Positions 8,358 through 23,334 of a stretch of 23,528 bases of DNA are shown piece after piece. Numbering within the stretch: position 1 is the first letter of the stretch; the number at the start of each line of letters is the position of its first letter. The notes beneath the pieces are model-generated. The model searched no databases, was not told where the DNA came from, and worked only from the letters and a program-made list of their open reading frames with translations. This DNA is from a virus. Both the position numbers and the translations under genes were made by a program. Location of the stretch: IMG/VR virus record IMGVR_UViG_3300047649_000003, positions 1 through 23,528 of that record. One strand, 5' to 3'.

Positions 8358-10322
8358 TTGGGTATAGATGTTCTCAAACAATATTTAGTATCTTTAGGAT
8401 TCAGCGTAAATAACGAACAATTCAATAAAATGAATCAAACTCTTACGGATATGTCTAAAACTGTTCAAACTCACACAGAAGGCATGACAAAGGCTTTTGT
8501 CGTTGCTTCTACCTCAATTGTTTCTGCTCTTGGTGGCGTGGCAGTAGCTACCGCAGGACTGGTAGATCAAGTCGCTAACGCTGATCTTGCCTATCAAAAA
8601 TTTGCCCTTAGAATGTATACTACTGCTGATGTAGCTAAACAGCTTAAAATTGTTACCGGGGCAATGGGCGAGAATATCAATGATATTGCGTGGGTTCCTG
8701 AATTAACTCAACGTTATACCGCATTGATGCAACAAGCTAAACAAATGGAGACTCCTGGAGATGCCGAGAATGGGCTAAAGAAAGTTCGGGATATTCGTTT
8801 TGAGTTTACTCGTATGAAAATTGAAGCTATGTATGGTATGCAGTGGATAGCTTATTATCTAATTAAATATTTAGGCGGCCCACTTGATGCTGTAGAAAAT
8901 AAATTAAAAGCAGTTAATGACTGGATAACTAAAAATATACCCATATGGACGCAAAAAATAGCACAATGGGTTATGGCTTTCATTGATTTCGGTAAAAGCA
9001 TTGTAAGATTTGCTAATACAGTTATTGATGCCTTTAAACGGTTATGGAATTCCATGGGTGGTGGAGAAAAAGCGTTTACCGGATTCGGATCTCTTATTAC
9101 AGCTTTCTTCTTATCTGGTCCGTTGGGAAAAGCAATGATGCTAATGGGAACATTTTTATTATTGTTAGACGATTTTTATGCCTATATTGATGGTAGAAAG
9201 TCCTCTAAGACCATGGCTCCTCTGTGGAAACACCTGACAGATATTAAAGGAGCAATGCCCGATTTTGGAGACGGATTAGATGACCTAAAGAAAAAAGTAG
9301 AATCATTAGCTATCAGTGTAGGAAAATTAGCTAATGATTCTCTTAAATCACTTAAAGATCAATTAACAACTATATTCAGTATCATTTGGGATTCATTGAA
9401 AAAAAACGGGGTTTGGCAAAGTTTTACAAATGCTTTAGACCATATAACAAACGGCATAAACGCTATGATTCGAGCATTGTCACAATCAATGGTGCAATTA
9501 GGAATATTGTCAGCAGACCAAAAATATCGGGACTTTTGGACATGGTTTAGTGATGAGTTATCTAGAGAATTAAAGCAATTGTTTGCGGTTGGCAAATTAA
9601 TTGGCGACATACTTAAAATGCAAGCTCAATTGTCGGTAGGCGATTTTAAAGGTGCATTAGAAACAATTAAAGGCATTAGCATTATACAAGACATTAAAGA
9701 TGCAAATGCTGGGGGTAATTTACACGGGACAAGTCGTTCATGGGATGGATCGGCTGGTAACAAGGAAATGATGGGATTAGCAAATCAAGTTTCTTCTCAA
9801 ACTGGAATCCCCGCAGACCTTATATATGGGCAATGGGGTCATGAATCAGGAAACTTTTCTTCTGATCTCGCCAAAGAAAACAATAATTTTGGCGGGCTGA
9901 AAAATTCAAGTGGCGATTATATGAATTTTGATTCCCCACAAGATTTCGCTAGTTATTTTGCTAAATATATTAAATTATATGCAGAAGATGGCATTTTGCA
10001 GGCTAATACACCCGAAGAGTATGCTGCAGCATTGAAACATGGTAGATATTTTGAGGATTCTGTATCTAATTACGCTAATGGAGTAAGTAATTTTTCTTCT
10101 CAATACGATAGTGCTAATAATTTAACCCCTTCTGGATATAGCCCATATGGTTCTGTGGGAGATTACGCTTACAACAGCAATAATACTAGCGCAGGAAGCA
10201 CAAATTCAGCTGTATACAATATTACAGTGAATGCTACTTCAGGGAACCCACAAGGAATTGGAAGCTCTGTTATCGATGCGATTAAAACTGCTAGAATGAC
10301 TCAAGCTTTTAGTGGGACGTGA
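8358..10322 (+). CDS. Tape measure protein with C-terminal glucosaminidase-like domain
   Basis: A 654-residue protein starting at TTG behind GGGAGGTGA (8342-8350). The N-terminus and middle are largely helical with hydrophobic stretches (about 45-70 and 250-275), typical of a tape measure that sets tail length and crosses the envelope during infection. Residues about 455-600 look like a lysozyme-fold glucosaminidase (FlgJ-like): GIPADLIYGQWGHESGNF, with the likely catalytic Glu at residue 496, then NNFGGLKN, FASYFAKYIKLYAE and AAALKHGRYFEDSVSNYANGV. This domain would cut peptidoglycan locally for DNA entry. The C-terminal tail (VYNITVNATSGNPQGIGSSV) is a pattern seen at the ends of tape measures. 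At about 0.15 nm per residue, the whole protein would predict a tail near 100 nm, a rough inference. Confidence 0.8.
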   Translation: MGIDVLKQYLVSLGFSVNNEQFNKMNQTLTDMSKTVQTHTEGMTKAFVVASTSIVSALGGVAVATAGLVDQVANADLAYQKFALRMYTTADVAKQLKIVTGAMGENINDIAWVPELTQRYTALMQQAKQMETPGDAENGLKKVRDIRFEFTRMKIEAMYGMQWIAYYLIKYLGGPLDAVENKLKAVNDWITKNIPIWTQKIAQWVMAFIDFGKSIVRFANTVIDAFKRLWNSMGGGEKAFTGFGSLITAFFLSGPLGKAMMLMGTFLLLLDDFYAYIDGRKSSKTMAPLWKHLTDIKGAMPDFGDGLDDLKKKVESLAISVGKLANDSLKSLKDQLTTIFSIIWDSLKKNGVWQSFTNALDHITNGINAMIRALSQSMVQLGILSADQKYRDFWTWFSDELSRELKQLFAVGKLIGDILKMQAQLSVGDFKGALETIKGISIIQDIKDANAGGNLHGTSRSWDGSAGNKEMMGLANQVSSQTGIPADLIYGQWGHESGNFSSDLAKENNNFGGLKNSSGDYMNFDSPQDFASYFAKYIKLYAEDGILQANTPEEYAAALKHGRYFEDSVSNYANGVSNFSSQYDSANNLTPSGYSPYGSVGDYAYNSNNTSAGSTNSAVYNITVNATSGNPQGIGSSVIDAIKTARMTQAFSGT

Positions 10323-20794: not shown

Positions 20795-20816
20795 CCGCCA
20801 ATAGGCGGTTATTTTT
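20795..20816 (+). terminator. Intrinsic terminator-like hairpin after the SGNH fibre
   Basis: CCGCC (20795-20799) and GGCGG (20804-20808) pair around AATA, followed by TTATTTTTAT. The stem is short but all G-C. It sits right after the TAA at 20793 and separates the fibre block from the lysis genes. Strength was not calculated. Confidence 0.6.
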
Positions 20817-20844: not shown

Positions 20845-21177
20845 TTGAAAGAATTCAACGATTTGTTAATGGATAAATTATCAGACTTGTTGGCGATGGC
20901 ATGGCTGTTTTATATTCTAAACATTGCGGCGGTTATAATTTTAGTGTTTCAGCGTCCGACTGATTTACTTAGTTGGACGTTATTTTTTGGAACAATTTAT
21001 TTTCAATCAGTTACATTGCCGGTTATCAATAATACAGCTAAACGATCAGGTGAACAAATGATGAAAGTCCTGCAAGAAACACACGACACCGCTATGGAAT
21101 CTCATAGTGAACTGCACTCCAAGCTTGATCTATTGATTAAAAACATGGAGGTGAAGCATGGCAGAGATTCGGATTGA
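20845..21177 (+). CDS. Small two-membrane-segment protein, possible holin; low-affinity iron permease/DUF1003-like topology
   Basis: A 110-residue protein starting with TTG behind GAGGAGGA (20831-20838). Two membrane segments are seen: about 15-35 (LLAMAWLFYILNIAAVIILVF) and 42-60 (LSWTLFFGTIYFQSVTLPV), then a charged amphipathic helix (about 65-104) ending SHSELHSKLDLLIK. This topology, with a C-terminal KLD.L helix, is weakly like the low-affinity iron permease family and DUF1003, but it also fits a class II holin. It is the first gene of the lysis cassette and overlaps the next gene by 20 bases, suggesting coupled translation. I cannot decide between holin and transporter-related protein from sequence alone; the family call is tentative. 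Confidence 0.6.
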   Translation: MKEFNDLLMDKLSDLLAMAWLFYILNIAAVIILVFQRPTDLLSWTLFFGTIYFQSVTLPVINNTAKRSGEQMMKVLQETHDTAMESHSELHSKLDLLIKNMEVKHGRDSD

Positions 21178-21532
21178 CTCTGAGACACTTAAATCGTTGA
21201 TTTGCGGGGCAGTATCGGAAGCAATGACTCCTTATATTGAAGCGATAACAAAACAAAACGGCAGAATTCTCGTATTAGAAACTATAAATACGCAGGAAAA
21301 AGGACTTTGCCCACAAAATTGTCCCTGCCAAAACCGACTTAATCAGCAGTCTACACAGATCACGCAAACTACCGAATCAGCAAAAGTTGCTCATCATCGT
21401 ATTGACGGGGTATTTAAAACGGCGGCAATTGTAGGGGGCTCTGTTAGCGGCGCAGTCACACTGTTGTTGATGGCAATTCAAATATTATTACAATGGCATG
21501 GTAGTGTGACTAAGTTTCTAGGGGGCAGTTAA
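21158..21532 (+). CDS. XhlA-like holin-associated protein, tail-anchored
   Basis: A 124-residue protein whose ATG lies inside the preceding gene (AGGTGAAGC ribosome site 3-9 bases before). Residues 1-85 are polar and helical, with a Cys cluster CPQNCPC (51-57) in the middle; residues about 87-112 form one membrane segment (TAAIVGGSVSGAVTLLLMAIQILL). The short RIDGVFKTAAIVGG junction is a pattern often seen in XhlA-type proteins, which join a cytoplasmic helix to one C-terminal membrane helix and work with a holin and an amidase in PBSX-like phages. Position before an amidase fits. The Cys cluster is not part of XhlA as I know it. Its stop overlaps the next ATG by one base. Confidence 0.55.
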   Translation: MAEIRIDSETLKSLICGAVSEAMTPYIEAITKQNGRILVLETINTQEKGLCPQNCPCQNRLNQQSTQITQTTESAKVAHHRIDGVFKTAAIVGGSVSGAVTLLLMAIQILLQWHGSVTKFLGGS

Positions 21533-22002
21533 TGGATAGCGACGAGAAAAGCGAATTGCAAGCCTTTATCATGTGTGCCACCGATGCTCTGAATACGACA
21601 ATATGCTTTATTATGGGCGTTATTGCCAGTGGACTAACTAATCATATTGTCTTGGTAACCTCGCTAATATTGGCTGTATCCGGTGCCCTGTCGATGTCAA
21701 GCGGCGAGTATACAAGCAATGAACCGCTATCTGGCTGGAAATCTGCAATAGGCGCATCCATAACGGGGTTTGTTTCTTTTATCGCTTGTTCGCTAATCCC
21801 CATATTGCCGTTTTTCTGGCTAGTGGGAGTTCCGGCGATGATAACAAGTATTATGTTGGGCACGGTCGTATTGTTCGCAGTAGGAGCAATTGGCGCAAGA
21901 TTTACTAACAAATCTGTCATTAGGAATGGTATAAGACAGGTTGTTTTAGGGCTGATAATTGTATCAATAAGTTATCGGCTTGGATTGAAGATTGGAGGTT
22001 GA
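21532..22002 (+). CDS. Compact VIT1/CCC1-like membrane protein lacking the cytoplasmic metal-binding domain
   Basis: A 156-residue protein with about five membrane segments (roughly 12-33, 37-57, 72-98, 101-123 and 133-152). It resembles the VIT1/CCC1 family of Fe/Mn transporters: ATDALNTTICFIMGVIA (Asp18) matches the first helix motif, GALSMSSGEYTS (Met55, Glu59) the second, and SITGFVSFIACSLIPILPFF, GARFTNKS and RQVVLGLIIVSISYRLG the last three. Usual members are 220-250 residues and carry a cytoplasmic helical metal-binding domain between helices two and three; here helix three starts about ten residues after GEYTS, so that domain is missing. It overlaps the XhlA-like gene by one base and is followed by the HNH-like gene. 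It may be a holin or an envelope/metal modifier; the family call is fairly firm, the function open. Confidence 0.68.
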   Translation: MDSDEKSELQAFIMCATDALNTTICFIMGVIASGLTNHIVLVTSLILAVSGALSMSSGEYTSNEPLSGWKSAIGASITGFVSFIACSLIPILPFFWLVGVPAMITSIMLGTVVLFAVGAIGARFTNKSVIRNGIRQVVLGLIIVSISYRLGLKIGG

Positions 22003-22004
22003 CA

Positions 22005-22466
22005 ATGGTAGCTGAACATATTGAAAAACATTCTTTACACGAAGTTGATGTTAGGCCGGATCACGGCAAACGCGACACACCAAAATTTCACAAGTCCAAG
22101 AAACGGCTTGAAGAAGATGGGCACCAACAGTGTTACGTGTTTGGCTGTAAAAATACTAATATTCAGACTCATCATAGGTATGAATTTTCATTCGAGAATA
22201 TCTGTGATTATGACAAATTGAAGGCTTATTTACTTGGTCATGATACTTACGGCTATTCCAAGCTAATGGAAAATTTGCCTATCGAATCAGTTGACGATGT
22301 AAGAAACCTAGTCAACTATTGCCAAGAACATCATACAGGAATTGACCACGAAGATGGCGGGTCCGGCATCGGCATACACGAAGTAACCGAGCCGGTGCCG
22401 CAAAATGGTGAGACAATTGAACAAGTTATGCAAAGAGTTAAAGAACACGAAAGGAAGGCGGTATAA
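22005..22466 (+). CDS. HNH-like zinc-binding protein
   Basis: A 153-residue protein. The ATG at 22005 lies six bases after GGAGG (21994-21998); the in-frame TTG at 21999 directly abuts that ribosome site and is unlikely. A possible zinc site is made of Cys43-x4-Cys48 and Cys106-x2-His109, with THH (56-57), and NLVNYCQEHH-GIDH in the position that HNH proteins have for NL..LC..CH...H. The C-terminal 40 residues are acidic and helical (IEQVMQRVKEHER). It thus looks like an HNH-fold nuclease or a non-catalytic relative. It lies between the VIT-like gene and the amidase, an unusual location, since phage HNH genes more often adjoin the terminase. The start overlaps nothing but is only 2 bases from the preceding stop. 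Confidence 0.6.
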   Translation: MVAEHIEKHSLHEVDVRPDHGKRDTPKFHKSKKRLEEDGHQQCYVFGCKNTNIQTHHRYEFSFENICDYDKLKAYLLGHDTYGYSKLMENLPIESVDDVRNLVNYCQEHHTGIDHEDGGSGIGIHEVTEPVPQNGETIEQVMQRVKEHERKAV

Positions 22467-22952
22467 ATGGATATAGTCGAAAAGAACTGGCCTTGGCCCC
22501 ACGCACTTGAGCAGCGAAGCGAAACGGACTATCTAGTCGTTCACCACACGGCTGGCCCGCAGATGCAAGATACACAGGAAATTTGGGATGAACATATTGC
22601 TATAGGCGACAACGGAATTGCTTACCACTACATTATCAAAGGCGATGGTACTGTTGTAAGAGGCAGGCCGAGCGATACAGTTGGCGCCCATGCTCTAGGG
22701 GTTAACGAAATATCTATTGGCATTGTGCTGGAAGGTAACTTTCAGACCGGACAAGACAACTATGTTACGCCGACTGATGCTCAGATCGCTTCAGTAAAGG
22801 AGCTTCTCGCGGAGTTGCTTAGCATTTATCCTGGTGTACAAATAATTGGGCATAGAGATGTTGCGGGGATTGTAAATGATTCGAGTGATGCAACTGCGTG
22901 TCCAGGCGATACGCTATATGCCATGCTACCAGATATTATAAAGGGGCTGTGA
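22467..22952 (+). CDS. N-acetylmuramoyl-L-alanine amidase endolysin (amidase_2/PGRP fold)
   Basis: A 161-residue enzyme that should cut the amide bond between N-acetylmuramic acid and L-alanine in peptidoglycan at the end of infection. The zinc ligands can be placed by analogy with T7 lysozyme: His26 in VVHHTAG, His129 in IIGHRDV and Cys145 in ATACPGD; Tyr53 in AYHYII is the conserved catalytic-site Tyr. At the position of T7 Lys128 there is Thr143, a change seen in many peptidoglycan-recognition proteins. The body of the domain (GDGTVVRGRPSDTVGAHA, SIGIVLEGNF) is complete. There is no separate cell-wall-binding domain and no signal peptide, so release needs a membrane pore. The ATG directly follows the HNH-like stop, with AAGGAAGG upstream. 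Confidence 0.88.
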   Translation: MDIVEKNWPWPHALEQRSETDYLVVHHTAGPQMQDTQEIWDEHIAIGDNGIAYHYIIKGDGTVVRGRPSDTVGAHALGVNEISIGIVLEGNFQTGQDNYVTPTDAQIASVKELLAELLSIYPGVQIIGHRDVAGIVNDSSDATACPGDTLYAMLPDIIKGL

Positions 22953-22955
22953 TTA

Positions 22956-23162
22956 ATGAAAACAGTAAACCTAACTCGCATTGGCGACTCCGGCATTTAC
23001 ACATTACCGGCAGGCGTGACAATCAGAGACGTGCTTAATATTTCGCTGGACGATAAGCCGATTGGATTCAATCGTTATAAAGTCTTGGCGCCTGACCAGA
23101 TCGACATCTATGATTCCAACTTGTCCAACTCTGCCGAGACTGTGACTGCCGAGGTAGAGTAA
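22956..23162 (+). CDS. Small hypothetical protein
   Basis: A 68-residue protein with AAGGGG about ten bases before its ATG, three bases after the amidase stop. It reads as a beta-rich domain with TRIGDSGIYTLPAGVTIRDVLNISLDD and NRYKVLAPDQIDIYD, then a polar C-terminus (LSNSAETVTAEVE). No signal peptide or membrane segment. I do not recognise a family. Its stop overlaps the next ATG by one base, so the pair is probably co-translated. A small structural part or inhibitor is possible, but nothing in the sequence decides. Confidence 0.6.
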   Translation: MKTVNLTRIGDSGIYTLPAGVTIRDVLNISLDDKPIGFNRYKVLAPDQIDIYDSNLSNSAETVTAEVE

Positions 23163-23311
23163 TGGCTGATACGACAGTCGGCATTTCGGTTGATCCAAAA
23201 ACCGACTCATCCAAAATTGTATTAGATTATCATATCGACGCTGACACAGATATTGCGGTGTCGGACGATACCGAAGGCAACAAAACTATTACCTTCACTA
23301 AAAAATTCTAA
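23162..23311 (+). CDS. Very small hypothetical protein (49 residues)
   Basis: ATG 23162 overlaps the previous stop by one base (GAGTAATGG) and has GAGGTAGA just before it, so translation is well supported despite the short length. The protein starts MADTTVGISVDPKTDSSKIV, contains DYHIDADTDIAVSDD and ends NKTITFTKKF. It is acidic in the middle, with no membrane segment and no recognisable family. The strong ribosome site, tight coupling and absence of rare stops argue for a real gene. Confidence 0.55.
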   Translation: MADTTVGISVDPKTDSSKIVLDYHIDADTDIAVSDDTEGNKTITFTKKF

Positions 23312-23319
23312 GCTTATTA

Positions 23320-23334
23320 ACCGCAAATGGCGGT
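23320..23334. other. Weak hairpin between small genes
   Basis: ACCGC (23320-23324) can pair with GCGGT (23330-23334) around AAATG. The sequence recalls the stem at 20795 but has no T-run in either orientation; after it comes AATAAAATAAAAAAA on the + strand. Not a convincing terminator, perhaps a decayed one or a leader structure of the next gene. Confidence 0.3.

Follow-up and report, generated by a model that had tools for sequence, protein, structure and literature searches.

A stand-alone VIT1/CCC1-family protein without its metal-binding domain in a phage lysis cassette

Lysis operons are viewed as sets of holin, antiholin, endolysin and spanin genes, and the locus described here raises the question of what a protein of the VIT1/CCC1 transporter family, devoid of its cytoplasmic metal-binding domain (MBD), does among them. 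The window, i.e. the whole stretch of DNA that was analysed, is the linear IMG/VR record IMGVR_UViG_3300047649_000003 of 23,528 bases, probably a virus fragment. It contains a myovirus structural module (capsid, tail sheath, baseplate hub and wedge, tail fibres), and is closed on the + strand by a lysis cassette encoding, in order, a 110-aa membrane protein, an XhlA-like protein, the VIT protein, an HNH-like protein, an Amidase_2 endolysin and two small conserved proteins (Table 1). In the tail region, a 654-aa protein (8358-10322) with a glucosaminidase domain (PF01832) is probably a tail-borne wall-degrading protein.

Gene layout of the cassette

The sequence-only reading had placed the VIT gene in a lysis cassette two genes before the amidase, and this was right, one HNH-like gene intervening. 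The VIT start codon shares one base with the stop codon of the XhlA-like gene (TAATG), and a 2-base gap separates its own stop from the HNH-like ATG at 22005. This ATG, instead of the TTG at 21999, is probably the HNH-like start, because GGAGG precedes it and the homologue in phage contig L003 begins MIAEHIEK, against MVAEHIEK in the window. The VIT gene resembles its neighbours in composition, with a GC content of 0.436 (0.403 for the window) and a GC3 of 0.429 (0.435 for the amidase). The HNH-like gene (window 21999-22466, L003:5519-6001) is conserved between membrane genes and endolysin in the two phages, and its match to phrog_8048 covers the C-terminal half of the family only.

Table 1. 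Features of the lysis cassette, with positions in the window.
Feature	Position	Strand	Evidence
Terminator-like hairpin, CCGCCAATAGGCGG then TTATTTTTAT, between tail gene and lysis cassette	20795..20808	+	pattern scan
110-aa membrane protein, two hydrophobic stretches, coiled C-terminus; holin candidate	20845..21177	+	blastp to L003
XhlA-like protein, 124 aa, C-terminal TM	21158..21532	+	31% to L017 protein; joint profile
MBD-less VIT1/CCC1-family protein, 156 aa, ATG start, 5 TM helices, D18/M55 kept	21532..22002	+	Pfam, PDB profile match, AF2, fold search, conservation
HNH-like protein (C..C, HH)	22005..22466	+	phrog_8048 HNH endonuclease E 1e-15; 38% to L003 protein, equivalent slot
N-acetylmuramoyl-L-alanine amidase (Amidase_2) endolysin	22467..22952	+	Pfam E 6.7e-24; phrog_822 lysis amidase 6e-37
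68-aa conserved protein 3' of amidase	22956..23162	+	43% to L003 69-aa protein, equivalent place
49-aa conserved protein	23162..23311	+	61% to L003 47-aa protein, equivalent place

Similar GC-rich hairpins bracket the genes, at 20795-20808 (CCGCCAATAGGCGG) and at about 23316-23330 (ACCGCAAATGGCGGT), as if the cassette were a module. As a terminator, the hairpin at 20795-20808 is weak evidence, because the pattern scan found 6 such sites in the region against 4.3 expected.

The two membrane proteins upstream of the VIT gene were assigned by distant similarity. The 110-aa protein had no Pfam family above cut-off; it matched a 147-aa protein of L003 by blastp (27.5%, E 4e-5) and a DUF1003 set by HHalign (61% probability), and may possibly be a remote DUF1003 relative, a relationship not established by these matches. 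For the XhlA-like protein, a joint profile with its L017 relative, itself matching PHROG holin/hemolysin families, led to XhlA-type proteins in Bacillota prophages, one of which matches Pfam XhlA at 1.2e-4, below cut-off. Because the window protein had no Pfam match to XhlA, the label is transitive only; of the proposed overlap with an XhlA-like gene, the one-base overlap was confirmed and the name is indirect. Viral contigs searched with the XhlA alignment A5 returned nothing. In the amidase, no hydrophobic N-terminal segment was seen by sequence inspection.

Family, fold and metal pocket of the VIT protein

The ORF at 21532-22002 is a true VIT1/CCC1-family protein. Pfam VIT1 (PF01988) matched with an E-value of 7.9e-22 and 78.6 bits against a cut-off of 28.1, in two stretches covering positions 1-55 and 130-213 of the 214 in the profile, and among PDB sequences a profile of two sequences (A3) matched EgVIT1 alone (E 1e-9). 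The AlphaFold2 model, obtained from a 53-row alignment with a mean pLDDT of 95.7 and a pTM of 0.88, consists of five long helices (3-32, 37-67, 69-91 with a short 93-96, 99-125 and 129-155). By Foldseek and VIA-align it superposed on the EgVIT1 structures 6IU4 and 6IU3 with Z 21.7 and 21.2 and an rmsd of 1.5-1.6 Å over about 150 residues (1.5 Å over 151 residues at Z 21.7). The next fold had Z 7.8, and matches below EgVIT1 (MgtE and others), all with Z under 8, were treated as generic helical packing. The identification is not due to chance, as the E-value of the profile, the fold match obtained independently and a second copy in a lysis cassette all point the same way. The reading from sequence alone was borne out here in its ORF, its length and all of its quoted motifs, as well as in family and fold; an ordinary holin or unrelated family, or a model without the VIT fold, was looked for as the contrary outcome and did not occur. 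No holin family in Pfam, PHROG or NCBIfam matched the protein, nor did any PHROG family with confidence. The short VIT-like family TIGR00267 (171 aa) gave a weak match (E 4e-7), but its 29.8 bits fall below the cut-off of 157 and the protein is not a member. In the viral structure library, VIT-like folds occurred in giant algal viruses, plus one 230-aa protein; BFVD entries A0A5J6VL61 and A0A0N9QR04 from giant algal viruses are short VIT-fold proteins (145 and 152 aa), MBD-less by length.

That no domain separates helices 2 and 3, as also claimed earlier, was confirmed: the missing middle section of PF01988 is the MBD, and alignment with a 217-aa full-length relative left a 68-residue gap at this place. 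Both phage proteins have lost the columns that full-length VITs conserve within the MBD, yet of the five columns with at least 95% conservation among 51 cellular VITs they keep four (D18, G29, S54, M55). D18 and M55, which do not vary across 53 sequences, correspond to Asp43 and Met80 of EgVIT1 by a numbering offset deduced from the conserved Asp and Met; these are the metal-binding residues of EgVIT1, and they are strictly kept in MBD-less plant VTLs, in which Asp59, the counterpart of Asp43, is essential (PMC10794610). The proton-relay position Glu72 is Leu47 in the window protein and Asn in the second phage protein. Proton coupling is uncertain because Glu72 is replaced, though bacterial relatives and VTLs lack it too. 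MBD-less designs are established in plant VTLs and in bacterial MbfA, which has a ferritin-like domain, and as both still move iron (PMC10794610, PMC7540006), the loss of the MBD is unremarkable by itself.

The same slot in other phages and prophages

Several hundred Bacillota genomes were searched with PF01988 or A3 (399, 300 and 368, in overlapping sets). Many full-length VITs and many of the Er-VIT type were found, and one other stand-alone MBD-less VIT, a 165-aa protein in a Bacillota prophage of genome G155 (L054:1471-1968). Of two further short candidates, that in G544 was a false match and that in G729 a frame-split Er-VIT. The matches in G017 and G047 were to other proteins and due to chance. 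The G155 prophage (L054/L070) has the order tail proteins, reverse transcriptase, XhlA-type protein (631-1008), DUF1003 protein (E 3e-29), VIT (E 3e-23) and Amidase_2 (E 1e-9; PHROG endolysin 1e-32), and its VIT gene overlaps the DUF1003 gene by 23 bases. The reverse transcriptase (L070:5559-6572; RVT_1 4e-13) lies shortly 3' of a tail protein, some 560 bases ahead of the lysis cassette, and has the appearance of a diversity-generating retroelement.

The two phage VITs are 24% identical and formed sisters in the tree (UFBoot 98), a relation less certain than this value suggests because the phage branches are long. Together with full-length bacterial VITs, both fall into a group with a support of 98, apart from Er-VIT1. 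Given the sister position inside this group, a single loss of the MBD, on the phage branch, is probable. An origin from MbfA/Er-VIT1 was rejected by the tree, in which the length of both phage branches calls for caution.

A VIT gene beside XhlA-type, DUF1003 and Amidase_2 genes recurs in L054, and in INPHARED no genuine isolate phage was found to encode an MBD-less VIT. The only INPHARED matches, in 'Acinetobacter phage MD-2021a' and MT835996, are not phage cases, as the records carry bacterial chromosome. In three records labelled as phage (CAKLQF020000007.1, CAKLQH020000006.1 and MT835996.1) the VIT surroundings resemble an ordinary bacterial chromosome, and they are likely misfiled or contaminated. 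No isolate-phage homologue of the window VIT was found in about 50,700 records, and a first genome-contig scan for VIT relatives likewise gave none. Searches of IMG/VR with single proteins and alignments A3 and A9 returned no close VIT relatives by a peptide-pattern method that misses divergent proteins and possibly excluded the record of the window.

What other cassettes carry in this position was followed with the window XhlA-like profile or the window amidase. At least 15 Bacillota prophage loci so recovered, read by eye, had an XhlA-like gene, a gene for a small protein of 1-3 TM and about 60-120 aa, and then an endolysin of varying type (GH25, Amidase_2, Amidase_3, glucosaminidase-like). 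Amidase relatives were compared in four phage contigs and one bacterial contig, 60-73% identical to the window amidase. In L005 and L004, with amidases 72-73% identical, the amidase follows a Phage_holin_4_1 protein (E 2.5e-9) and a weak T7-holin-like 57-aa protein, respectively, and in L008 and L009 short XhlA-like proteins occupy the slot. L003 shares the window cassette, with homologous 2-TM, HNH, amidase, 68-aa and 49-aa proteins, lacks the VIT, and has a 100-aa protein with one TM where the window has XhlA. A prophage of genome G043 (L156:418-1959, - strand) likewise is without VIT and carries DUF1003, a 62-aa XhlA-like protein and a GH25 lysin. DUF1003 proteins, recurrent in Bacillota lysis cassettes, may be an unrecognised holin type.

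Role in lysis and likeness to known systems

As the lysis core works without a VIT in L003 and L156, the VIT is probably an accessory, and as a distantly related second prophage shares the arrangement, the MBD-less VIT is a real part of some lysis operons. We favour, with moderate confidence, an accessory transporter of VIT/CCC1 fold that still moves metal ions without the MBD. A cellular transporter would have lost its MBD and become a late, co-translated member of the lysis operon, just upstream of the endolysin or HNH-endolysin pair and beside XhlA-like and 2-TM proteins. It would form a five-helix dimer, as in the MBD-less VTLs and MbfA, and export divalent iron or manganese from the cytoplasm through its D18/M55 site, probably in exchange for protons. 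If abundant in late infection, it could drain metal, proton-motive force or both, and so help to fix or sharpen the time at which lysis occurs, while the XhlA-like and 2-TM (DUF1003-like) proteins would permeabilise the membrane for the signal-less amidase. This is preferred to a holin proper or a passenger because the position points to lysis, the kept residues to metal passage, and L003 and L156 to a VIT-less core. Against it count the number of cases, two only, the replaced Glu72, and the XhlB/holin slot, which could equally mean a permeabilising role.

That the VIT is itself the holin or pinholin, a transporter fold reused as a pore with the XhlA-like protein releasing or activating the amidase, is unlikely. 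In its favour, PBSX places the XhlB holin between XhlA and the XlyA amidase, all three genes being required (PMC5589764), and the small TM proteins of the prophage loci, like the Phage_holin_4_1 protein of L005 and the weakly T7-holin-like one of L004, lie where the window and L054 hold the VIT. The lack of any holin family match speaks against it, as does a transporter pocket kept at so low an overall identity, unexpected for a mere pore; a compact 5-TM dimer would also have no known route to the large holes needed by a signal-less amidase. A large-hole holin is made less likely by the conservation of the channel residues and by the additional 2-TM protein of the window, with DUF1003 present in L054. 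We are similarly doubtful of the broader proposal that an MBD-less VIT with XhlA is a membrane-acting lysis effector, by collapse of proton-motive force or permeabilisation, replacing XhlB-type holins in a Bacillota phage lineage.

A passenger (moron) transporter, benefiting the lysogen or infected cell by iron/manganese detoxification or a superinfection effect and merely located in the operon, is possible if somewhat improbable. It would agree with the kept pocket, with the absence of VIT from the close relative L003, as expected of an optional gene, and with a weak promoter-like match at 21467-21494 inside the upstream gene. Such matches are near chance level by the pattern scan, however (21 observed, 15.1 expected, sd 4.6), and the tight gene overlap, the equivalent slot in two distant phages and the lack of an own terminator (none on the + strand between 20981 and 23165 by pattern scan) argue for a component of the operon. 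Decay of a VIT into a functionless remnant would explain the missing MBD and replaced Glu72, but the frame is intact, the five TM helices are confidently folded, the domain loss is clean, D18 and M55 are invariant, and a sister protein of like design exists in another prophage; this reading is strongly disfavoured and very improbable.

The VIT family and MBD loss were known already, and a stand-alone MBD-less VIT tied to lysis cassettes appears undescribed. In the open-access literature nothing relevant connected DUF1003 or VIT/CCC1 with phage or prophage lysis or holins, in line with the earlier remark that such a gene is not known as a described lysis component, and a published case of a VIT family protein and a phage does not appear to concern phage-encoded lysis. 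The presence, in two distant phages, of a lysis-operon transporter whose metal-binding residues are intact suggests active handling of metal or proton flux during lysis, and a minimal natural VIT core of 156 aa, with neither MBD nor ferritin domain, can help to address the purpose of the MBD.

With EgVIT1 and the VIT1-CCC1 family (PF01988; 6IU3, 6IU4) the window protein has in common the five-TM fold, the Asp43 and Met80 equivalents and an above-cut-off profile match; it differs by the missing cytoplasmic MBD, by Leu for Glu72, and by being phage-encoded in a lysis operon. Plant VTLs such as MtVTL8 also have no MBD, a kept Asp/Met pocket and a non-chargeable residue at the Glu72 position (PMC10794610), but are a cellular plant family with other biology. 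MbfA/Er-VIT1, for which iron export has been demonstrated (PMC7540006, PMC4902296), likewise has an MBD-less VIT domain, whereas the window protein has no ferritin-like N-terminal domain, beginning 17 residues before Asp18, is only 15-21% identical, and groups with full-length bacterial VITs. As in the XhlA-XhlB-XlyA cassette of Bacillus subtilis PBSX, a gene that is XhlA-like by transitive similarity is followed by a membrane protein and then an amidase; in the window, the VIT and HNH-like genes, instead of a small holin, fill the XhlB position between the XhlA-like and amidase genes, and an additional 2-TM protein precedes XhlA.
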